From Arcobacter arenosus (GTDB lineage: Bacteria > Campylobacterota > Campylobacteria > Campylobacterales > Arcobacteraceae), in assembly GCF_005771535.1 (NCBI RefSeq), contig NZ_VANU01000007.1, forward strand, positions 1 to 64,000: 64,000 nt of DNA, given 5' to 3'. The notes beneath the pieces were generated by a model, which saw only the letters and a list, made by a program, of their open reading frames with translations, did not search any database and was not told where the DNA came from. This document shows positions 4,492 through 63,967 of this stretch, piece by piece. The stretch's first letter is position 1, and each line of letters opens with the position of its first letter. The translations under genes and the position numbers were made by a program.

Positions 4492-5577
4492 TTAGAACCC
4501 TAGTTGTATTGAAAGTAAAGATATTATAGCATTGATTATAATTAACCAAAAAATTGAATCAACAACGGCTTTTGTGGTATATTTTCCAATATCTGTACCA
4601 CTTTTAACTTGTAATCCTCTATAACATCCAATAATAGCAATTAAAATACCAAATAATGGAGCTTTTAAGATACCAAGTAAAATATGCCTAATCTCTACAT
4701 ATTCATAAATTCTTTCTATAAACTGAGTATATGAGATACCAAGATGAATTTTAACTATAACCATTTCACCAATAAGTGAAGCCATATCAGCAAAAAATAC
4801 TATTAAAGGTAAAACAATAATTAAGGCAATGATTCTAGGAATTATTAAAAATATATCAATATCAAAGCCCATTGTTCGCATTGCACTTATCTCTTCTGTT
4901 ATTTTCATTGTTCCAATTTGAGCTGTATATGATGAAGCACTTCGTCCTGCAATTATAACAGCTGCTAAAAAAGGAGCAATCTCTCTAAACATACTCATTG
5001 TAGACATCTCAATAACTATTATTGCTGCACCAAATCTATTTAATTGTTCTGCCCCTTGATATGCTGTAACAAATCCAACTAAAAATAAGGCTAGAGCAAC
5101 AATTGGTAAAATAGGAATAGCTGCAATCTCTATTTGATGAACAATAGATTTGAATCTAATTTTAGAAGGATGTTTTAAAAGATAAAAAATATAAACTATT
5201 AATTTTCCTATAAAATATAAAAAGTTTTTAAAAGAGTTTGAGGAATCAAATACCTCTTTCCCTATCTTTTCTAAAAATGGGGATTCTTTTGAGATAATCT
5301 CATCTTTATGTACATAATTACTTTTGTATAAATCAAACATTTTTTTATGTTTTGATGAGATGTTTTCAAGTAAAACTTCTATATTGTTTTTCTCAAAAAT
5401 TATTACATATTTTATTAGTAAGATAATTCCTGATGAATCAATCTGTCCAAGTTTTTGAAAATCAAAACTTACAGTTTGAGAAGCGATGTTTTTTTTAAAA
5501 AAGTCATCTAATTCTTTTATTTTAGGTGTTAGTGTTGCATATTCCCAATCTTCTTTAACTGTAAATTGATTTATCAA
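4492..5577 (-). CDS. mlaE: MlaE family permease with N-terminal STAS domain
   Basis: 361 aa. Residues 1 to about 95 form a STAS-like domain (QKLGQIDSSGIILLIKY). Residues about 110-361 are an MlaE permease with five or so membrane segments and the family motifs GSPYTAQIGTMKI-like (SSYTAQIGTMKITEEI) and IISIIGCYRG-like (IAIIGCYRGLQVKSG). In E. coli the STAS protein MlaB is a separate subunit. Here it is fused, which explains why no mlaB gene is present. The start is TTG with AAAGGA upstream. It lies nine bases after pepD and heads the mla genes. Confidence 0.9.
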   Translation of the reverse strand: MINQFTVKEDWEYATLTPKIKELDDFFKKNIASQTVSFDFQKLGQIDSSGIILLIKYVIIFEKNNIEVLLENISSKHKKMFDLYKSNYVHKDEIISKESPFLEKIGKEVFDSSNSFKNFLYFIGKLIVYIFYLLKHPSKIRFKSIVHQIEIAAIPILPIVALALFLVGFVTAYQGAEQLNRFGAAIIVIEMSTMSMFREIAPFLAAVIIAGRSASSYTAQIGTMKITEEISAMRTMGFDIDIFLIIPRIIALIIVLPLIVFFADMASLIGEMVIVKIHLGISYTQFIERIYEYVEIRHILLGILKAPLFGILIAIIGCYRGLQVKSGTDIGKYTTKAVVDSIFWLIIINAIISLLSIQLGF

Positions 5578-5586
5578 TGGGGTCCT

Positions 5587-6876
5587 TTAAAAAGTGTCAA
5601 CGATATCTTTTACGATTTTACCAATGTTTAGTATCGATTTGATTTCAACTTTTTCTCTTGTTGAGTGTGGGTTAAATATATTTGGACCAATTGAAGCAAT
5701 TTTCATATGTGGAAACTTGTCCTTAAATATCGCACACTCTAATCCTGCGTGAATTGCTTCTAAGGATGCATTAGGATTGTGTTTTTTATAAATATCTAAA
5801 ATCATATTTGTAAACTCATTTACATCTGGTTTCCATGCTGGATATTTTCCATCAGTTTTTACTTCAAAACCAAAAGACTCCAATAACAAAATGGTTTCTT
5901 TTTTTAATAGTTCTAGATATGAATTTGACATTGAACGACCACTTAATTCAATCTCTATATCATCTATATTTGTTTTTATTTTTGCTAAGTTAATTGAGTT
6001 TAATACTACATTTAAATCTTTATCAAATGCTCTTACACCATTTGCAAATGTATAAATGAAATCACAAATATCACTTGACCAAACATTTAGATGTTCAGTT
6101 TTAGAATCAATTTTATTTATACAAATATTTTCATTTGGTATTATTTTTGGTTCATTTTTAAATGCAACAATTGCTTTTACATTTACTGGAATTGAGTTGA
6201 TTCTCTCACCTCCATTTATGTCAAGAATTAGACCATTATTCTCTTTTATAGTTTGTGCAATTAATTTAATCCCATTTGGTACATTTAAGTGGATATCAAC
6301 TCCACTATGACCACCTGGTAAGTTAGAGACTGTTACTTCATAAAGCTGATAATTTTCATTATTCTCAATAATTTGTTTTGAAGAGTTTTTTGCAAAAAAG
6401 TCTACTCCTCCAGCACAACCAATACAGATTTCACCTTCGGCTTCACTATCAATATTTAACATATACTGTGCATTTAATTTATGCTCCAAATTGTTTGCTC
6501 CAATTAATCCTATCTCTTCATCACTAGTAAATAAAAACTCACAGTCATAACCTTGAGTCATTAGTGAAAGCATATAAGAACAACCAATTCCATTATCTGC
6601 TCCCAATGTTGAGTTTTCAGCCTTTAAAAAGTTTTCCTCTTCAACAATTTTAGGAACACAATTATCACTTAAACAAACAATATCATAATGATTCTGTAAA
6701 CATAAATTTGCTTTTGAATTCTCTTTTTTACATAAAATATTATTAAACTTATCAACTAAACAAAGATATTCATTTTTTGAAGCAAAATTTTTCATATAAT
6801 TTATAAATGGTTCATGGTTCCCACTACATCTAGGAATAGTTGTGATTTCTTTGAAAATATCTAAAACATTATTCAC
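5587..6876 (-). CDS. pepD: Cytosol non-specific dipeptidase (aminoacyl-histidine dipeptidase), M20 family
   Basis: 429 aa. Hallmarks of PepD: ITTIPRCSGNHEP near the N-terminus, metal-binding LQNHYDIVC, GADNGIGCSYML, FTSDEEIGLIGA, LPGGHSGVDIH and HAGLECAIF near the C-terminus. It hydrolyses dipeptides in the cytoplasm with a two-metal site. It is somewhat shorter than the E. coli enzyme (about 485 aa), but all catalytic blocks are present. The start is GTG with AAGG upstream. It is the first gene of a probable transcript running into the mla genes; I see no functional link. Confidence 0.92.
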   Translation of the reverse strand: MNNVLDIFKEITTIPRCSGNHEPFINYMKNFASKNEYLCLVDKFNNILCKKENSKANLCLQNHYDIVCLSDNCVPKIVEEENFLKAENSTLGADNGIGCSYMLSLMTQGYDCEFLFTSDEEIGLIGANNLEHKLNAQYMLNIDSEAEGEICIGCAGGVDFFAKNSSKQIIENNENYQLYEVTVSNLPGGHSGVDIHLNVPNGIKLIAQTIKENNGLILDINGGERINSIPVNVKAIVAFKNEPKIIPNENICINKIDSKTEHLNVWSSDICDFIYTFANGVRAFDKDLNVVLNSINLAKIKTNIDDIEIELSGRSMSNSYLELLKKETILLLESFGFEVKTDGKYPAWKPDVNEFTNMILDIYKKHNPNASLEAIHAGLECAIFKDKFPHMKIASIGPNIFNPHSTREKVEIKSILNIGKIVKDIVDTF

Positions 6877-6992
6877 AAATAGCCTTTTTTAGGTACTATT
6901 ATAACTAATAATATAAAAAATTTCCTTATATTTTTAAGCTTTGTTAAAAAATATTATATTAAGATAAATAAATTAAAATTTAGGGAAGATAA

Positions 6993-7556
6993 ATGATTAT
7001 AGATTATAAAGATGTAAACGATTTAAATAGATATAAAATTATGTCTGATACAGTTGTACCAAGACCAATTGCATGGATTGTAACAGAAGATGATGGTGTG
7101 ATTAATGCAGCTCCATTTTCATATTTTGTACCATTATCAAGTAATCCTGCTGTTGTTATTGTTTCTATTGGTATAAAAGAAGAGGGCGTTCCAAAAGATT
7201 CTTTACATAACATTTTGAAAAATAAAAAAGCAACTATTTGTTTTGTAAATAAAGATAACACAGAAGATGTAAAACTTTGTGCAAATATGCTTGATAAAAA
7301 TGAGAGTGAAATTGAAAAGTTTCAAATAGATGTTCAAAAACCTTTAGAGGATTTTCCTCCAATGATAAGCTCAACTCAAACTGCTTTATTTTGTGAGTTT
7401 TATCAAAAAGTTGATATTCCAGGGAAAACTACACCAATTATATTAGAGGTAAAAAAACAATATATTGAGGATGGTAGATTAGATGAAAGATATCATGTTC
7501 ATGTTGAAAATGTAGGTAGAAGTGGAGCTTTTTTTAAAGCAATGGTAGACTTATAA
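6993..7556 (+). CDS. Flavin reductase family protein (FMN-binding split barrel)
   Basis: 187 aa. The pattern PRPIAWIVTEDDGVINAAPFSYF...PAVVIVSIG is the FMN-binding split barrel of the flavin reductase-like/DIM6-NTAB family. CEFYQKVDIPG and GRSGAFFKAM in the second half fit. Such proteins reduce FMN with NAD(P)H or serve as flavoprotein oxidoreductases. The partner is unknown. It is a single gene divergent from pepD, with GGGAAGATAA before the ATG, and it ends at a strong convergent hairpin. Confidence 0.85.
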   Translation: MIIDYKDVNDLNRYKIMSDTVVPRPIAWIVTEDDGVINAAPFSYFVPLSSNPAVVIVSIGIKEEGVPKDSLHNILKNKKATICFVNKDNTEDVKLCANMLDKNESEIEKFQIDVQKPLEDFPPMISSTQTALFCEFYQKVDIPGKTTPIILEVKKQYIEDGRLDERYHVHVENVGRSGAFFKAMVDL

Positions 7557-7581
7557 AACTAAGAGTTTATCTCTTAGTTTT
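7555..7581. terminator. Bidirectional terminator hairpin
   Basis: An 11-bp perfect stem (AAAACTAAGAG / CTCTTAGTTTT) with the loop TTTAT fills the gap between the convergent flavin reductase and chemoreceptor genes. A-rich and T-rich stem ends suit termination in both directions. Confidence 0.8.
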
Positions 7582-7582
7582 A

Positions 7583-9838
7583 TTAAAATTTATTTTCAGA
7601 TACTTTTTTAACAACATTTTGTGCTATGTTGTTAGTTTTTATTGCAATAGTATTTGTTACTTCAGCAATAGCTGCATTTTCTTGTGTAAATTTATCTAAT
7701 TGACCAACAGCGTCAGCTATCTGATTCATTCCTATACTTTGTTCTTTAGCCGCATTTGCTACATCACTTATAAGGTTACTTGTGTCATGAATTTTTAATT
7801 CTAATTCATTAAATCCTTCAATCATTTTATTACTAATATTTTTACCATTATCAGCTTTTGTTGTAGCATTTTCAACTAAGTCTTTAATCTCTTTGGCTGC
7901 TTCTGCACTTCTTGCCGCAAGGTTCCTTACTTCTTGAGCAACTACAGCAAATCCTTTACCTGCTTCTCCTGCAGTTGCTGCTTCAACAGCTGCATTTAAT
8001 GATAAAATATTTGTTTGGAAGGCAATTTGATCAATTACTGAAATCGCTTCGTTGATATTCATAACTGTAATATTAATATCTTCCATTGCATTTACAGTGT
8101 TTGTTGCTAAATTCTTACCTTCTGTAGCAGAACTTCTAGTCTCGTTTGAGATAATAAGCATCTCTTGTGCTTTTTGACTTGTACTGTCAATATTACTTGT
8201 AATTTCATCAATTGATGCCGCTGTTTCTTCTAAAGAAGCAGCTTGAGAAGTTGCATTATTTGATAAAGTATTTACATTTGATGTTAATTCATTTGCATCA
8301 TTTTGAAGCTGCATACCATCATTATGGCTTGTTCTAAGCATCTCTGTAATCATATCATTCATATTAGATATTTCATTTCCAATTTTACCTGAAGAAGATT
8401 TATCTAGTTTAGCAGTAAAGTCTCTTTTTGAATAACTTTCTAATACTTTACTTATAGTATTTAAATCTTTTCCTAAAATTGATTGAAGATTATCTAGCAT
8501 TTGGTTAAGTAAGTCTTTTAATTCATTTAGTGAATCAGTAGATGTTGTTTTATTGATTCTTTTACTCAAATAACCTTGGCTTACTTCATTGGCTACAGTT
8601 TTTACCTCTTCAATAATCATATTATCTTCAATTATTGAAGTTTTTATCTTATTTATATTTTCATTAATGCTTCTAGCCATTTGTCCAAATTCATCATTTG
8701 AAGATATATTAATAGTATCAACATCAGAGGATTGTTTATTTAAAAATCTAAAAAATGATTCTATTCCATTTGAAATAGAAGAAAGATTCGATTTTAACAC
8801 TGTTATTGAAAAGTAAACTACAATAGCTATAATTAATATTCCAACTAATGAGAAAATAATTGAAATATTTCTAATGAAGTTTGCATCAGCTAAATACTCA
8901 TTTTTAGGAGCATTTACAAAAATAGACCAGTTAGTTCCCTCTTCACCTACCTTAAAAGGTTTAACAACATATTGTGAATCAAATCCATTTCCAAAAGATT
9001 TTTTTTCAAAAGAGTATGGTTTTAATTGTTTCACTTTTTTCAAAGCTTTGATATAATCAGGATCATTTTTAGAAACTTCTAAAAGTTCTTTATTAACAAC
9101 TTCTTTTTCTGGGTGTCCTAAAATTATTCCATAATTATCAACAATAAAAAAATATCCATTATCATATATTTTGGTTTTTATTGTCATTTGCAAAAATTTA
9201 TTTAAATCAATCTCTGCTCCAACTGCACCAGCAAATTCACCATCTTTATATAAAGGCATCGCAATTGTTGTCATTAGGGTATCAACTCCTGCAATAGGAT
9301 AGACATAAGGTTTTGTAATAAAAAGTTTACCAGCTTCTTTTGGTCCTTTTATCCAACCATTTTCCTCATTATATGATGATCCAGACTCAATTATAATACC
9401 ATCTTTTCCTCTTGTTATATATGGAGAGAAACTTCCATCTTTTGCATACCAGTTTTTTGGATGTTTACCATCATTTACGTTTGTTTCATATAAAATATTA
9501 GCTTCTTTTGTAGACCACCATATACCAAGTAATTGTTCATTGTCTTTCAGCATAGATTTGAACATTTCAATTGATTCTTTTTCTTTAAGGATTGTATTGT
9601 GATTTATAGCTTCTTGAAATTTAGCCCATATTGTTTTTACTAAACTTATTGATAAATTAACATCACCTTGAACTTTTGATGCATAATTACTTGAAACTTC
9701 ATTAAGGTAAGTTTCTGCACCTTTTTGTGTTGTTTCATAAGAGTATTTTTCTAATATAAACATAGTTAAAGCAAATACAACAATAGTTGCACCTAGTACC
9801 CTAAGTAATAACTTATTACCAAAACTAGAATTTTTCAT
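7583..9838 (-). CDS. Methyl-accepting chemotaxis protein with dCache_1 sensor
   Basis: 751 aa. Membrane helices lie at about 9-27 and 323-345. Between them is a double-cache domain ([48 protein letters not shown]), the fold that binds amino acids and other small ligands. A HAMP-like and helical region follows. The highly conserved signalling hairpin ([20 protein letters not shown], then [15 protein letters not shown]) is near residue 610. The ligand cannot be told from sequence. The ATG has AGGCGAGGG upstream. It stands as a single gene. Confidence 0.93.
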
Positions 9839-57240: not shown

Positions 57241-57741
57241 CTAAGAGTATTCGTTTTTATAATCTACATAATGACCAGCGTGTTTTATTAATTTTTCAAC
57301 ATCCTCATCAGTCAATGTTTTTACAACTTTAGCAGGGCTTCCCATGATTAAACTTTTTGGAGGAAACACTTTTCCAGAGGTAACTAAAGAGTTAGCCCCT
57401 ACAATTGAACCTTCTCCAATTACAGCATGGTCTAATATTGTCGCACTCATTCCTATTAAACAATTATTTTCAATGGTACAACCATGAAGCATAACTTTAT
57501 GTCCAATAGTAACATTATCACCTAATATTGTTTTTGAATCTGTATCCATATGAATCATTGATAAATCTTGTACATTTGTATTCTTACCAATGATAATATC
57601 GTTTACATCTCCCCTTAAAACACATCCAAACCAAATTGATGAGTTTTCTCCAATAGAAACTCTTCCTATTATATCTGCACTTGGTGCAATCCAAGCACTC
57701 GAATCTATTTTTGGATAATGTTCTTTAAATTTTAATATCAT
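57241..57741 (-). CDS. Gamma carbonic anhydrase family protein (left-handed beta helix)
   Basis: 166 aa of hexapeptide repeats (ADIIGRVSIGENSSIWFGCVLRGD split over several turns). The three metal-binding histidines are present in SMIHMDTDS and TIGHKVMLHGC. It belongs to the YrdA/PaaY-type group of gamma carbonic anhydrase homologues, many of which have uncertain activity. It is 72 bases downstream of the M14 peptidase gene on the same strand; it is a common housekeeping gene and need not belong to that cluster. Confidence 0.9.
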   Translation of the reverse strand: MILKFKEHYPKIDSSAWIAPSADIIGRVSIGENSSIWFGCVLRGDVNDIIIGKNTNVQDLSMIHMDTDSKTILGDNVTIGHKVMLHGCTIENNCLIGMSATILDHAVIGEGSIVGANSLVTSGKVFPPKSLIMGSPAKVVKTLTDEDVEKLIKHAGHYVDYKNEYS

Positions 57742-57813: not shown

Positions 57814-60402
57814 CTATTTTGCTTCATATTTTATAATTACAGGCTCTGAGTAGTTTGGAACTTCATCATAGGTAAAGATTGCATAATATTTATCAATGTC
57901 TTTAGCTCCAAAGTCATCAAAGGTATAGTTATCCGTTCCTGCATAAAGTTTTTGTCCATCGTGAGTAGAATAGGGCTCTCTAAATGCATTTTTAATAACT
58001 TTAGTTCCTTTAAATCCAATCTCTTTAGGATTTTCCCAGCTTATTTTGATTTTACCATTTTCCAAAGATAATGAAGTATTTGTAACTTTTGGAAGCGGAT
58101 ATCTTCTTTTAGGAATATGTTCTATAATTAATTTTGGAGAAAGTGCTTGGTTTTTAATCTCCCACGATACACTTTTATTTTTAATACTCTTTTTAGAAGA
58201 AGTTGGTTTTAAAACAAAGGCTACATCAGATTTATTTTTTAGTTTCTCATTTAAAATAATCTCTGCAAAACTATCAAATAAGAAATATTGAGTTTGATTG
58301 TTTTTTAATTCATTTGCACTAACATCATATCCAATATTTTGAATAATCTCTCGATTTGCTATTGAATCATAATCTTGGTCAATATTTTCATCCACAAATT
58401 CAAGATGAAATCGAATATCATCTTTTATATAAATATTTGTAGAGTTCAATTCAAAATAAGCTTTAGTAATCATTGTATCTTCATATGGAGGCATTGAAGA
58501 TAGATTAAACTCAAAGGTAGAATATATTTTTTTACCATTTTCATCAAAACCTGATGAGATTCCATCTTGATTGATACTATTTCTACTAACTGTAAATACT
58601 TCTTTTGGATATAACTCAGTTATAGTTGGTTTTATTGTGTATGTTAATTCTAATCTTGGTCTATAAGTTAAACCATAACCAAATTTTCCATATCCTATAT
58701 CCCATTGCATCATTTGTCTAGTACGACCAATAATTAACTCTTTTGGACCTTCAACCCTAAATACAACTTTTCCATATTTTTGACCCATTTCTTGAAGGGT
58801 TTTACACTCCATACCCGAAAAACTCCATGTTCTCCAAATACCTTGAGTTAATTGGTGAGATTCTGTAGGTCTTCCAACATATTGGATAATTTGCATATTA
58901 TCAACATCTTCATATTTAGTGATATCACCCATAGTTTCTTGGTTTACAATACCAACATTCCATTCACCATATTTTTCAATAGTTGTAGAAACTCTATTAA
59001 TGGGATAAAGGTTTATTGAGGCATCTTTAATGATTGCATTTTCAGGAACAGATTTTAAACTAACTGTTACAATAGCATAAGAGATACCTTTATTTTCATC
59101 TATTCCTACAAATAAAGAGTTTACTCCAAAATGTGAAGCATTATTGTTTAAATTCTCTGCAACATATCCAGTTTCTTTAGCTGTTGCATAATAAGTTCTA
59201 CTAAACTCATCATAATCACAATCTGTTCTAAGTCTTATTTGAGGATAAAAAGGTGACTTCTCTCCTGTTAATTTATTTACAACTCTAATATTGTAGAAAT
59301 AATCTTTATTTGAAGTTAGATTAATATCACTAAATTCTAAACTTTGTGTTCGTGCAATTAAATTTGAACTATTACAAAATTGTTTATCTTTTTGGGCTCT
59401 ATAAATTTCAAAGAAAATATTTTCATTTGTTTCATATCCCCATTTTAAATTTACATGGTGGGAACCAATTTCAGTAATTTCAAAACTATCAACTCTTTTT
59501 ACTGAATTGTTTTTTGAATAGTTTGGTACTTCATTCACTGCATAAAGTAATGCTGGAATATGCTCCCTTAAGTTTTCATTCATATCATCCATATAATCAC
59601 TTATATTTCTAGTCCCCACTTCTACAACAGTAGAGATAATCCCTAAAGAATGATAAAATTCTCTTCCGCTTCCTGAAATTAATTTAATAGGCGGTTTTCC
59701 TTGATGAATACCATATTCTCTACCTGAAATTTTTCTAATCTCTTCAGCCATATTTGCACATAAAGTGTTCATATCTGTGGTATCAATTGTATCTTCATGT
59801 CTAAAGTCATGTGCCGGGAAGAATACATTTCCTTGAGAATGGTAATCTAAAGCAATCGTAATATTTTTATGGGTTTCAACAAAATCTCTTAATGCTCTAG
59901 TTTCAGGTTCAGAAAATGGTTCTGGACCTCCATATACATTAGATGTTGTTTTTGTTGATTTTACATAACCTATTGGAAAGTTTCTATTTAAATCAACACC
60001 ATAAGAACCATCAATATTTGGTCTTCTATTTTTTCTCCAAAAAGAGAAATGATTATAAGAATAATCAAAACCATCTGGATTTGCACATGGAACCATATAA
60101 ATTGTGGTTCCTTTTAAATATGATTGTATAGTTGTATCTGTATCTAATTTTTCTAATATATATTGTGCAAATTCTACTGCTAATTCATGTCCTATCCATT
60201 CTCTAGCATGGATAGTACCAGTAAAAAATAGTGCTGGTTGTTCATCTGCTTTTTTAATATCCATAGAGATAGTAATTAGATTAATATCTCTTTTTTCCCA
60301 AGTTTGACCTATAGATTCTAACTTGAAATTATTAGGAAATTTTTTTTCTAAATCTTTAAAAATTTCAGTCGATTCATTATATGATCGATAAAGTTGTTTC
60401 AA
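57814..60402 (-). CDS. M14 zinc carboxypeptidase with C-terminal FN3-type modules, no signal peptide
   Basis: 862 aa. The M14 domain is at about 1-300: zinc ligands in GTIHAREW (His 65, Glu 68) and DYHSQGN, substrate Arg in DLNRNFP, and catalytic Glu in STVVEVGTRN. Then an FN3-like module (about 310-400), two beta-rich regions with similar blocks (ISYAIVTVSLKSVPENAIIKDASINLYP; FEFNLSSMPPYEDTMITKAYFELN) resembling stalk or carbohydrate-binding modules, and a final FN3-like module (about 770-862). Such modular M14 enzymes are normally secreted, yet the protein starts MKQLYRSYNE with no signal peptide. The start is TTG with AGGAG upstream. It begins 3 bases after the ATP-grasp-HhH gene. Confidence 0.88.
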   Translation of the reverse strand: MKQLYRSYNESTEIFKDLEKKFPNNFKLESIGQTWEKRDINLITISMDIKKADEQPALFFTGTIHAREWIGHELAVEFAQYILEKLDTDTTIQSYLKGTTIYMVPCANPDGFDYSYNHFSFWRKNRRPNIDGSYGVDLNRNFPIGYVKSTKTTSNVYGGPEPFSEPETRALRDFVETHKNITIALDYHSQGNVFFPAHDFRHEDTIDTTDMNTLCANMAEEIRKISGREYGIHQGKPPIKLISGSGREFYHSLGIISTVVEVGTRNISDYMDDMNENLREHIPALLYAVNEVPNYSKNNSVKRVDSFEITEIGSHHVNLKWGYETNENIFFEIYRAQKDKQFCNSSNLIARTQSLEFSDINLTSNKDYFYNIRVVNKLTGEKSPFYPQIRLRTDCDYDEFSRTYYATAKETGYVAENLNNNASHFGVNSLFVGIDENKGISYAIVTVSLKSVPENAIIKDASINLYPINRVSTTIEKYGEWNVGIVNQETMGDITKYEDVDNMQIIQYVGRPTESHQLTQGIWRTWSFSGMECKTLQEMGQKYGKVVFRVEGPKELIIGRTRQMMQWDIGYGKFGYGLTYRPRLELTYTIKPTITELYPKEVFTVSRNSINQDGISSGFDENGKKIYSTFEFNLSSMPPYEDTMITKAYFELNSTNIYIKDDIRFHLEFVDENIDQDYDSIANREIIQNIGYDVSANELKNNQTQYFLFDSFAEIILNEKLKNKSDVAFVLKPTSSKKSIKNKSVSWEIKNQALSPKLIIEHIPKRRYPLPKVTNTSLSLENGKIKISWENPKEIGFKGTKVIKNAFREPYSTHDGQKLYAGTDNYTFDDFGAKDIDKYYAIFTYDEVPNYSEPVIIKYEAK

Positions 60403-60405
60403 AAA

Positions 60406-61908
60406 TTACTCTCCTATTTTAAGTCTAGATTTTAACTGAGCTAATTTGTTTTTGCCAATTCCCTCAAGCTCTTTTAATTGATCTAAATCTTTTATCCCTT
60501 TATTTTTATTTCTGAATTCAAAAATATTTTTTGCAAGTTTAGCACCAATACCTTTTATTTTCTTTAATATTGATTCGTCAGCTGTGTTTATGTCAACTCT
60601 CATGTCATCTAAATTTTCATCCCAAGTTTTTAGAACTTGTTCATCTATAGATTCTAATTCTAATAAATCGCTTGAATCAGTAATAACATTGTTTTTTGCA
60701 TATTCGCTAATCTCTAAAGCTAAATCCTCTTCCATCCCATGTAAAGTCATTAAATCTGTTAAAGATGCACAATTTAAATTTATTTTATTAATCTCTAAAT
60801 TATCTCTTATTGCATTTTTTGATAACTCTTTTGCAATTGGTAACTTTTCAGGAGCAATAGAAGCAGGTACATCACTTGGTAAGCTAGGTTCTGCAATTTC
60901 CATTTTGAATTTATCCTTTGGTTCATTAATAAAATAAGTTCCATCACAAGATGGTTTGTATTTACTAAAGCCAATGTGTCTCATTGTTCTTAATAATGAT
61001 GAATCAATTTTACCAAGCTCTTCCCATGAGAATAAAGGAACATGTGGCATAGGAAATCTACCGTTTGAAAAATCCCACATTAAATATTGACAAATCCAAT
61101 CTCGAATATAAGGAAAAGCTGCAAACGCAGTTGCACATTCTAGTATATAAGCTTTGTCAGTTTTTGCATCAATAGCAATATCACAAGCCCAGTATTCAGC
61201 TTTTGCAGCTTTACTTGCTTCAACTGCTAATTCTAAAGCATTCATTGGAACATTTTCATATGACATAGAACCACCTTGAGAAGTATTTGTAATCCATTGT
61301 CCTTCCCCAGAAAATCTCCAAAAGGCACAAACAGGTTTATGCCCAATTAACATAACTCTAATATCTCCAGAGAATTTTAAATCTATGGCATCTTGTGTAT
61401 AAATTGGGTTGTATTTTTCTTTTTCCAGAAGAGTTTTAGCTTCTTTATAATTATCAACTTTATGAACATAATATCCGCCATAATTTGATGGTCCATAACT
61501 TCTTTTTACTATTTGTGGATATTTAGCTTTGTTTTTAAGATATTTGAACCCTTTTTCTTTGTTATAAAAGATTTTTGTATAAGGTACTGATAGATTATAC
61601 TTTTCACAAAAAAGTGTAACATTCTCTTTTGATTTATTTGAAAATTGTGTTTCTAAAGATGGAACAAATCTAACATTTGGAAGTTCTTTTGAGATTTCAA
61701 CAAATGTATCGTAAGCTGTTGCAGGAATATTTCCTATTAGTACATCAATTTTTTTTCTTTTAACCTCTTTTATAAATCTATTTTTATCATTTTTCCAATG
61801 GTATGTAACCGTTTCAATTTTGTCTGGCCAACCTTTGAAATTTGATTTGTCAAAGAATCTCAAAACATAATCTAAATACAAAAAACCTAACTTTGGTAAT
61901 TTTTTCAT
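60406..61908 (-). CDS. ATP-grasp ligase fused to helix-hairpin-helix repeats
   Basis: 500 aa. Residues 1 to about 315 are a RimK-like ATP-grasp: nucleotide Lys in PQIVKRSYGPSNYGGYYV, metal/ATP region GDIRVMLIGHKP, TNTSQGGSMSYENVP, and YWACDIAIDAKTDKAYILECATAFAAF in the place of the usual ExN loop. A linker (about 315-375) leads to two ComEA-like HhH units (about 375-420, NLNCASLTDLMTLHGM; about 437-500, VDINTADESILKKIKGIGAKLA). ATP-grasp enzymes of this kind join a carboxylate to an amine. The HhH tail could bind DNA, RNA or protein. The fusion is unusual. It is between the second ATP-grasp (26 bases) and M14 (3 bases) genes. Confidence 0.8.
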   Translation of the reverse strand: MKKLPKLGFLYLDYVLRFFDKSNFKGWPDKIETVTYHWKNDKNRFIKEVKRKKIDVLIGNIPATAYDTFVEISKELPNVRFVPSLETQFSNKSKENVTLFCEKYNLSVPYTKIFYNKEKGFKYLKNKAKYPQIVKRSYGPSNYGGYYVHKVDNYKEAKTLLEKEKYNPIYTQDAIDLKFSGDIRVMLIGHKPVCAFWRFSGEGQWITNTSQGGSMSYENVPMNALELAVEASKAAKAEYWACDIAIDAKTDKAYILECATAFAAFPYIRDWICQYLMWDFSNGRFPMPHVPLFSWEELGKIDSSLLRTMRHIGFSKYKPSCDGTYFINEPKDKFKMEIAEPSLPSDVPASIAPEKLPIAKELSKNAIRDNLEINKINLNCASLTDLMTLHGMEEDLALEISEYAKNNVITDSSDLLELESIDEQVLKTWDENLDDMRVDINTADESILKKIKGIGAKLAKNIFEFRNKNKGIKDLDQLKELEGIGKNKLAQLKSRLKIGE

Positions 61909-61934: not shown

Positions 61935-62849
61935 TTATTTTTTAGTTTTTCTATCAATTAAATCAACAATCAATTCAATTTTTTTATCATTATAGTCTAT
62001 ACCGATTTTTTCTTGCTCAGGAGTTATAAATGCAGGTATTCCATTAACCTCTAAAACAATATATTCTTCTTTTTTTCTATCATAAATAATATCAACTCCA
62101 GCGATATCAAGACCAGTAACTTTAGCGGCATTTAGTGCCAATTCGATTACACTATCTGGAATCTCTCTTTTGAAAACACTTCCACCACTTGTAACATTTG
62201 TTCTCCAATCTGTTCCGCTAGCTCGTCTCCCATATCCACCAACATAAGTGCCATCTACAATATCAATTCTAAAATCACTATTGTCATAATCAATAAATTT
62301 TTCAACATAAAAAAATCTTAAATCCATTTGATTTAAAAAAGGCAATAACATATCTAGAGTTTCTTCATTTTCTATTTTAGTTAATCCGACTCCACCCCAA
62401 CCATCAGTTGGTTTGTAAACCATTTTATCCCATTTTTTAATTATCTTTTTTAATTGCCATGTATCATCTCTATGACAAAGTTTATAATCAGCAGTTTGTA
62501 TTTTATTTCTTCTTAAAACAAATGAAGTATGAAATTTGTCTTCAGTTAATTCAAATGATTCAAAAGAGTTAATCATTGGAATAACTTTGCTTAGGGCCTT
62601 ATATAAATACATTTGATATTGAGTTTGTTCCCCTGCATTGTATGAAAAAAATAAATCTAATTTATCTAATTTGATATTTTTGCCATCTCTTTCATATAAA
62701 ATGTGACCATTTTTTGCAATTGCATCTCTAAGGTTAATATTAGGAATAACCTCAATTCCTCTTTCATTTAATTGTTCAATAATTTTTTTTTGAATTATAT
62801 CCCCACCACCATTTTGGTATAACCACATACCAATTGTTCTTTCTCCCAT
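61935..62849 (-). CDS. RimK-like ATP-grasp amide ligase
   Basis: 304 aa, a complete stand-alone ATP-grasp. It has the N-terminal pre-ATP-grasp region, MVYKPTDGWGGVGL (ATP Lys and Gly loop), YVEKFIDYDNSDFRIDIVDG, WRTNVTSGGSVFK, and GVDIIYDRKKEEYIVLEVNGIPAF with the metal-binding ExN. It is closest in design to glutamate-adding RimK/coenzyme F420:glutamate ligases. The acceptor is unknown. AGGAGA precedes the ATG. It lies 26 bases from the genes on both sides in a four-gene operon with two peptidases. Confidence 0.85.
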   Translation of the reverse strand: MGERTIGMWLYQNGGGDIIQKKIIEQLNERGIEVIPNINLRDAIAKNGHILYERDGKNIKLDKLDLFFSYNAGEQTQYQMYLYKALSKVIPMINSFESFELTEDKFHTSFVLRRNKIQTADYKLCHRDDTWQLKKIIKKWDKMVYKPTDGWGGVGLTKIENEETLDMLLPFLNQMDLRFFYVEKFIDYDNSDFRIDIVDGTYVGGYGRRASGTDWRTNVTSGGSVFKREIPDSVIELALNAAKVTGLDIAGVDIIYDRKKEEYIVLEVNGIPAFITPEQEKIGIDYNDKKIELIVDLIDRKTKK

Positions 62850-62875: not shown

Positions 62876-63967
62876 CTATTTTTGTTGATAAAAACTTAAA
62901 ATTTTTGTCATCATTTCAATTCTTTGTTCAAATGAACTTTTTAATGCCCTTTCTTTTTTTGTATGGTCGCCATCTCCATAAGGACCAAAGCCATCAATTG
63001 TTGTTACTCCACAACTTGCAACAATATTGGCATCGCTAACACCACCTCTTCTTTCAGTTTGAATTTTTTGATTAGTCAATTCTTCAAAAAATTTAATCAA
63101 ATCCAATTGATTTTGGTTTTGCTCCATTACTCCTCTTTGGATTATCCCCTCAGCATGGGAAATGGTTCCTTCAACGAAAGATTTATTAGTAATTTCTTCT
63201 ACACTTTTCATAACTCTTTCTTGTTCACTAACTTTATCAAACCGAAACTCCATATGCATCTCACAATGGGGCGATACAGTATTAATTCCAATACCACCTT
63301 CGATTTTCCCTACATTTACAATAGTTCCTTCATCAAAGTTTATTAATTCATGAAATTTTTGAAGTTTAATTGCCCCTTCAAGATTTGCATTGATACCTTT
63401 TTTGTATGAAGTTCCCGCATGTGCAGCTTTCCCCTCAACTTTTATAATGTATCTTCCTACACCTTTTCTTGCGGTAACTACCTCAAGTTTTTTTCCAGCT
63501 GCTTCAAATACAAAACAATAATCATAATCCTTTGCAATCGATGATGTTACCTCTTTTGAGTCATCACTTCCTGTTTCTTCATCGGAAACCAATAAAAAGT
63601 CTATATTGAAAATTTCTTTGTTTTTATTAAAAATATTTCTAAGAGATTGTAAGGCAACAATATTACCACCTTTCATATCACATACACCTGGACCATATAT
63701 CCAATCTTCATCTTCACTAAAACCCTCAAAATAACCATTAGGAAAAACAGTATCGTTATGTCCTAATAAAAGTATTTTTTTCCCATCTTTTTTAGCAGAT
63801 TGATATAAGATATGATCACCAATTAATTCTCTTTTGTATATTTTTTTGGAAAAGCCAAGATCTTCTAGCCATTTACTCATGTAGCCACTAACTTCGTCAA
63901 CACCATGTTTATTATGAGTGTATGAGTTAATATTAATGATTGTTTCTAAGTCTCTTAAGTAGTTCAA
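62876..63967 (-). CDS. M20 family metallopeptidase (carboxypeptidase G2-like)
   Basis: 363 aa. Metal and catalytic motifs GHNDTVFP, GPGVCDMKGGN, LVSDEETGSDDS, AAHAGTSYKKGINANLEG and GVSDANIVAS are all present. The layout with lid domain (about 175-285) matches the carboxypeptidase G2/ArgE branch, enzymes that remove C-terminal Glu or similar residues. No signal peptide. The start is TTG with AAGGG seven bases upstream; the same frame is open to the window edge, so a longer N-terminus cannot be fully excluded. First complete gene of the ligase/peptidase operon. Confidence 0.85.
   Translation of the reverse strand: MNYLRDLETIININSYTHNKHGVDEVSGYMSKWLEDLGFSKKIYKRELIGDHILYQSAKKDGKKILLLGHNDTVFPNGYFEGFSEDEDWIYGPGVCDMKGGNIVALQSLRNIFNKNKEIFNIDFLLVSDEETGSDDSKEVTSSIAKDYDYCFVFEAAGKKLEVVTARKGVGRYIIKVEGKAAHAGTSYKKGINANLEGAIKLQKFHELINFDEGTIVNVGKIEGGIGINTVSPHCEMHMEFRFDKVSEQERVMKSVEEITNKSFVEGTISHAEGIIQRGVMEQNQNQLDLIKFFEELTNQKIQTERRGGVSDANIVASCGVTTIDGFGPYGDGDHTKKERALKSSFEQRIEMMTKILSFYQQK

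Follow-up and report, generated by a model that had tools for sequence, protein, structure and literature searches.

A gene of Arcobacter arenosus encodes an ATP-grasp domain with a variant metal site, joined to a helix-hairpin-helix (HhH) tail and held under purifying selection. It belongs to a four-gene operon found repeatedly in free-living Campylobacterota but seldom outside them. The gene (60406-61908, minus strand, 500 aa) lies in the window, the 64,000-nucleotide stretch of contig NZ_VANU01000007.1 that was analysed. The other three genes encode a second, canonical ATP-grasp ligase and two carboxypeptidases, and this company is a stronger functional clue than the tail. Our best explanation, held tentatively and at somewhat less than even confidence, is that the protein is an HhH-docked amide ligase in an add-and-trim system of two ligases and two carboxypeptidases. 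This points to a modification or peptide pathway that is so far unstudied. No description of the architecture or of the operon was found in the open-access literature searched. Since that search covered open-access papers alone, the absence of a description is weak evidence.

ATP-grasp domain and metal site

The preliminary description, made from the sequence alone, proposed a fusion of an amide ligase with HhH repeats in one reading frame. The fusion holds. The gene is a single open reading frame with Pfam and NCBIfam matches, and the arrangement is conserved in homologues. Residues 103-257 match the Pfam RimK family (PF08443, E 3e-14, 53.5 bits against a cut-off of 21), and HHH_3 matches two stretches, the better at 437-496 (whole-protein E 4.3e-26, 91.2 bits against 27). 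The NCBIfam matches (rimK_fam, LysX and two ComEA stretches) all fall below the curated cut-offs. Given these E-values, conservation over many genera and purifying selection on both HhH units, a chance fusion can be excluded.

The protein divides into an ATP-grasp domain of the RimK/LysX/ArgX type (residues 1-330; 60919-61908), a disordered linker (331-373; 60790-60918) and the units HhH1 (374-434; 60607-60789) and HhH2 (435-500; 60409-60606), all on the minus strand. An AlphaFold2 model based on an alignment of 39 homologues has a mean pLDDT of 75 and a pTM of 0.52. Confidence is moderate in the ATP-grasp part, mostly below 50 at residues 334-372 and about 76-93 per block at residues 371-500 (about 76-92 for HhH1). 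The helices of two HhH domains are visible there, and the structure prediction thus bears out the proposed nature of the C-terminal part. Selection differs along the chain. Estimated by simple counting at dS close to 1, and therefore rough, dN/dS is about 0.06-0.10 in the ATP-grasp core, mostly 0.11-0.25 in the HhH units (with one value of 0.40) and 0.26-1.27 in the linker. The core is therefore the most constrained part, and selection on it is strong whether its role is catalytic or not.

The nearest solved folds to the ATP-grasp domain (Foldseek, VIA-align) are headed by ArgX (3vpb; Z 18.2, rmsd 3.6 over 261 residues), RimK (7qyr; Z 17.8) and LysX (3vpd; Z 17.6). The VIA matches of the full model cover chiefly residues 2-356 and are thus uninformative on the HhH part. 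ArgX, RimK and LysX are ligases that attach an amino acid to a protein C-terminus, RimK adding glutamate to ribosomal protein S6. Likeness to LysX and ArgX extends beyond the fold (Z 17-18) to sequence affinity, with a WITNT(S/A)xGG segment and a DIRV motif in common with LysX. However, the protein differs from both in having ECA for ExN, an extra HhH tail and a different operon, in a genome without LysW. It scores 54.1 bits against the LysX equivalog TIGR02144, below the cut-off of 275.6, and the genome, 99.98% complete, yielded no LysW (TIGR01206) at E <= 0.001 in a search that recovered its positive controls. RimK shares the Pfam family and the fold but not the ECA metal loop or the HhH tail, and the score against the RimK equivalog PRK10446 (18.6 bits) is far under the cut-off of 331. 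Ribosomal protein S6 was considered as a target. In the window's genome it ends in AAKKAN rather than in a run of glutamates, so it is no obvious one.

The metal loop had been read as ECATAFAAF in place of a usual ExN form, and this is exactly what is found, identically, in 103 of 103 full-length homologues (88 distinct over the core). The variant motif is E257-C258-A259 (61132-61140, minus strand). K135, R184, N208, D243 and E257 are likewise identical in all 103. D243 and E257 are separated by 14 residues, the same spacing as between D253 and E267 in the adjacent ligase. That ligase retains E-V-N or E-I-N, with D253, E267 and N269 invariant in 19 aligned homologues. The missing residue is therefore the ExN asparagine, here Ala259, an assignment based on this spacing and on a Pfam alignment that ends at E257 rather than on a superposed active site. 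Active PF08443 members have a D...ExN metal triad. D243 and E257 supply two of its members, and the third, the asparagine, is Ala259.

The HhH tail and its variants

The tail had been described as tandem, ComEA-like HhH repeats. Two HhH units are indeed present and HhH2 is a canonical ComEA-type HHH_3 domain, scoring above the gathering cut-off, but HhH1 is a degenerate, acidic unit. The hairpin glycines are kept as GIG at both hairpins of HhH2 and the GxG hairpins of HhH1 are lost, with GMEE and SID in their place. Apart from the second HHH_3 stretch, HhH1 is matched weakly and below the Pfam cut-off by PsbU (374-432, E 3e-4), and its net charge is -6 to -16 in the 59 rows of the commonest tail type. 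HhH2 has GIGxK at both hairpins, is mostly net positive and has profile matches to EEPD1 (9yi2) and ComEA (8dfk, 8dss). The HHH_3 domains of these two proteins are its direct sequence relatives, although here the domain is joined to an amide ligase and not to a competence or nuclease-family protein.

Homologues lacking the tail would speak against the fusion, and none of the 103 full-length homologues lacks an HhH-type tail. Four kinds occur. Type A (HhH1 and HhH2) is found in 59 rows, 44 of them distinct, and type B (HhH1 only) in 32; most type B units score below the Pfam cut-offs and are named HhH1 by alignment to type A. Type C, a single row (L072), has HhH2 only, after a lysine-rich linker. 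Type D (11 rows, L103-L113) ends in a different tail that matches Pfam HHH_5, with an E of 2e-8 for L103 and scores below cut-off for L106 and L107. Modelled alone, this tail has a pLDDT of 84, and its nearest structures are RuvA, XPF/ERCC1, UvrC and DisA, with SAM domains also among the neighbours. A Foldseek search with it gave no match at E <= 0.001, so the assignment rests on Pfam HHH_5 and the run of RuvA, XPF and UvrC neighbours. Type D homologues would thus carry an HHH_5/(HhH)2 domain like those of RuvA, UvrC, XPF and DisA, a different kind of HhH from that in the window's protein but at the same position.

On a tree of the ATP-grasp core, type D forms one clade (100/100) adjoining the one with the Arcobacteraceae A forms, and type C falls inside type B. 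Well-supported branches require three or more changes for A and four or more for B, HhH2 having been gained or lost several times.

What does such a tail bind? Either of two readings, a DNA-bound acceptor or a protein dock, may be right as far as the sequences go. The best-known property of HhH domains is binding of the DNA backbone, and hairpins of the DNA-binding type occur in HhH2 and in the HHH_5 tail of another clade. DNA binding by these two forms is plausible. However, HhH1, carried by most homologues, is acidic and without GxG, which points to a protein dock rather than to DNA. The presence of different HhH kinds at the same position favours a property that HhH domains share.

An apparent HhH-only open reading frame was seen beside an M14 gene (L130, 3746-4210, minus strand). 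It runs into the contig end and most likely represents the C-terminus of a truncated gene rather than a free-standing HhH protein.

The operon and its distribution

The gene order in the window is M20 peptidase, second ligase, ATP-grasp/HhH gene and M14 carboxypeptidase, with gaps of 26, 26 and 3 bases. The second ligase (61935-62849, minus strand, 304 aa) matches Pfam RimK (E 3e-23) and has a canonical D/ExN metal site. The solved structure nearest to the M20 peptidase (62876-63967, minus strand, 363 aa), a family assigned by Pfam, is carboxypeptidase G2 (1cg2; E 2.6e-29 over residues 4-356), and its score against PRK06133 is 184.1 bits, below the cut-off of 349. The M14 protein (57814-60402, minus strand, 862 aa) matches Pfam Peptidase_M14 (E 6.6e-58, 197 bits against a cut-off of 21.6), is nearest to the solved carboxypeptidases CPA, CPB, CPT and CPO and has a DNRLRE-type C-terminal region (NCBIfam). 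Such regions are usually associated with surface proteins. The open reading frame of the M14 protein begins at the catalytic domain, and no signal peptide is visible.

The arrangement is conserved across 80 loci in public genomes. The second ligase is directly upstream of the ATP-grasp/HhH gene in 64 of these, M14 is directly downstream in 69, and 61 have all four genes, which overlap slightly or lie a few bases apart (approximate values, since start codons were assigned mechanically). The exceptions include several contigs cut at their ends and nine loci without a partner adjoining the ATP-grasp/HhH gene. Copies without partners nearby are L072, L103-L105 and L110-L113, and at least two of the genomes concerned (G107, G111) carry another copy.

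Homologues come mainly from free-living taxa such as Arcobacter, Sulfurimonas and Hydrogenimonas. The gene was detected in 32 of the 298 genomes sampled from the phylum. In the class of the Thiomicrorhabdus homologue it is found in one of 229 genomes, the Thiomicrorhabdus genome itself, and in the class of the Desulfuromonadales homologue in five of 244 (two of them already known and one cut by a contig end). Of the 47 genomes in the window's family that carry the ATP-grasp/HhH gene, all 47 also carry M14 and 44 the second ligase (Fisher 2e-23 and 3e-23, respectively, values that are uncorrected for shared ancestry).

In the window the operon is followed by a gamma-carbonic-anhydrase-like gene (57241-57741, minus strand), as it is at many Arcobacter-type loci but not at most others. 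Upstream, argG occurs in several Arcobacter-type loci but was not seen in that position in L062 or L075, and was discarded as a member of the system. In L132 (genome G082; 5078-8235) argG is followed by the M14 and carbonic-anhydrase-like genes alone, and the operon's remaining three genes are missing there. Anti-phage defence and phage origin were also considered and set aside: none of the four operon proteins was matched in PADLOC, and the ATP-grasp/HhH protein has no PHROG match.

Possible functions of the system

The preferred explanation takes the ATP-grasp/HhH protein to be an amino-acid or peptide ligase of the LysX/ArgX/RimK lineage that is predicted to be active. It would cooperate with the canonical ligase encoded directly upstream, and together the two would attach amino acids to an acceptor. 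Trimming or recycling of the product would fall to the CPG2-like M20 and CPA-like M14 carboxypeptidases, in what is probably a reversible cycle. The HhH tail, on its flexible tether, would serve as a docking module that holds the ligase to a partner or to a macromolecular acceptor, and where HhH2 or an HHH_5 domain is present the acceptor may be on nucleic acid. Opposed ligation and C-terminal trimming are suggested by the known reactions of the partner families. A similar logic is known for tubulin, where the ATP-grasp ligases of TTLL/CCP pairs are opposed by M14-type carboxypeptidases. The analogy is one of working principle and claims no membership.

The add-and-trim explanation is supported by the ligase folds nearest to the protein, the invariant residues and strong constraint of its core, the conserved operon with its co-occurrence, and the carboxypeptidase relatives of M20 and M14. 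Also in its favour, an HhH-type tail is kept in all 103 homologues even though the kind of tail switches across the core tree. In addition, a stand-alone 145-aa HhH1+HhH2 protein is encoded by a gene that immediately follows the partner ligase's second copy (L050, 13725-14162, plus strand). Against it, no acceptor gene lies near the operon, S6 is no obvious target, solo copies exist, and at least one genome (L131) has the M20, second-ligase and M14 genes and no ATP-grasp/HhH gene. Loss of the ExN asparagine in every homologue could also mean that ATP-dependent catalysis is weak or absent. In L131 a short gene that reads as ORF6N-like, a label given by sequence reading and not by profile, lies between the M20 and second-ligase genes (8254-8565, minus strand).

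To our knowledge, few cases of amino-acid ligation to proteins are known in bacteria. A conserved two-ligase/two-carboxypeptidase operon in which one HhH kind takes the place of another would be a simple system for testing how such ligases find their acceptors, and the ATP-grasp/HhH protein would test whether ATP-grasp enzymes function without the ExN asparagine.

A close rival, a real possibility if a somewhat less probable one, is that the operon's products synthesise and recycle a small soluble peptide or amino-acid conjugate, perhaps an osmolyte or a storage peptide, and that the tail merely docks the two ligases. This would fit two ligases and two peptidases with no acceptor gene encoded near the operon, and adjacent or overlapping genes, which suggest co-translation. 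It would also fit the commonest tail element being the acidic, GxG-less HhH1 and homologues occurring chiefly in free-living taxa. However, a metabolite cycle leaves unexplained why HhH1 has been replaced in two lineages by HhH types with canonical DNA-type hairpins, and why solo copies exist without the partner ligase.

A more specific proposal is that an HhH-targeted ligase whose metal site lacks the asparagine, with the second ligase and the two carboxypeptidases, reversibly attaches amino acids to a bacterial protein bound to nucleic acid. We consider this rather unlikely.

Perhaps the ATP-grasp part is a pseudoenzyme, or a nucleotide or amino-acid sensor, and the tail binds DNA, so that the protein would regulate or anchor the canonical ligase. 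The asparagine is replaced by alanine in all homologues whereas the partner keeps ExN in every aligned one, HhH2 combines GIGxK hairpins with a mostly positive charge, and HhH-bearing DisA is among the structural neighbours of the type D tail. Nevertheless, the core is the most constrained part of the protein, its remaining ATP-grasp residues, the Asp and Glu metal ligands among them, never vary, and many homologues carry the degenerate HhH1 alone. The idea is improbable.

Could the tail itself be the acceptor, a built-in carrier like LysW of lysine and arginine biosynthesis? The nearest folds include LysW-bound ArgX, the tail is partly acidic, a free-standing HhH protein stands beside a ligase copy, and many Arcobacteraceae tails end in -GE. 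However, the C-terminal residues are unconserved (-IK, -FFK, -LLK and others also occur) and LysW itself is absent from the genome, so a LysW-type carrier was rejected and the reading as a whole seems very unlikely. Finally, that the fusion is an evolutionary accident and the tail without a role would suit the repeated gain or loss of HhH2 but is barely credible, and already disfavoured by dN/dS, since no full-length homologue is without an HhH-type tail and purifying selection acts on both units.
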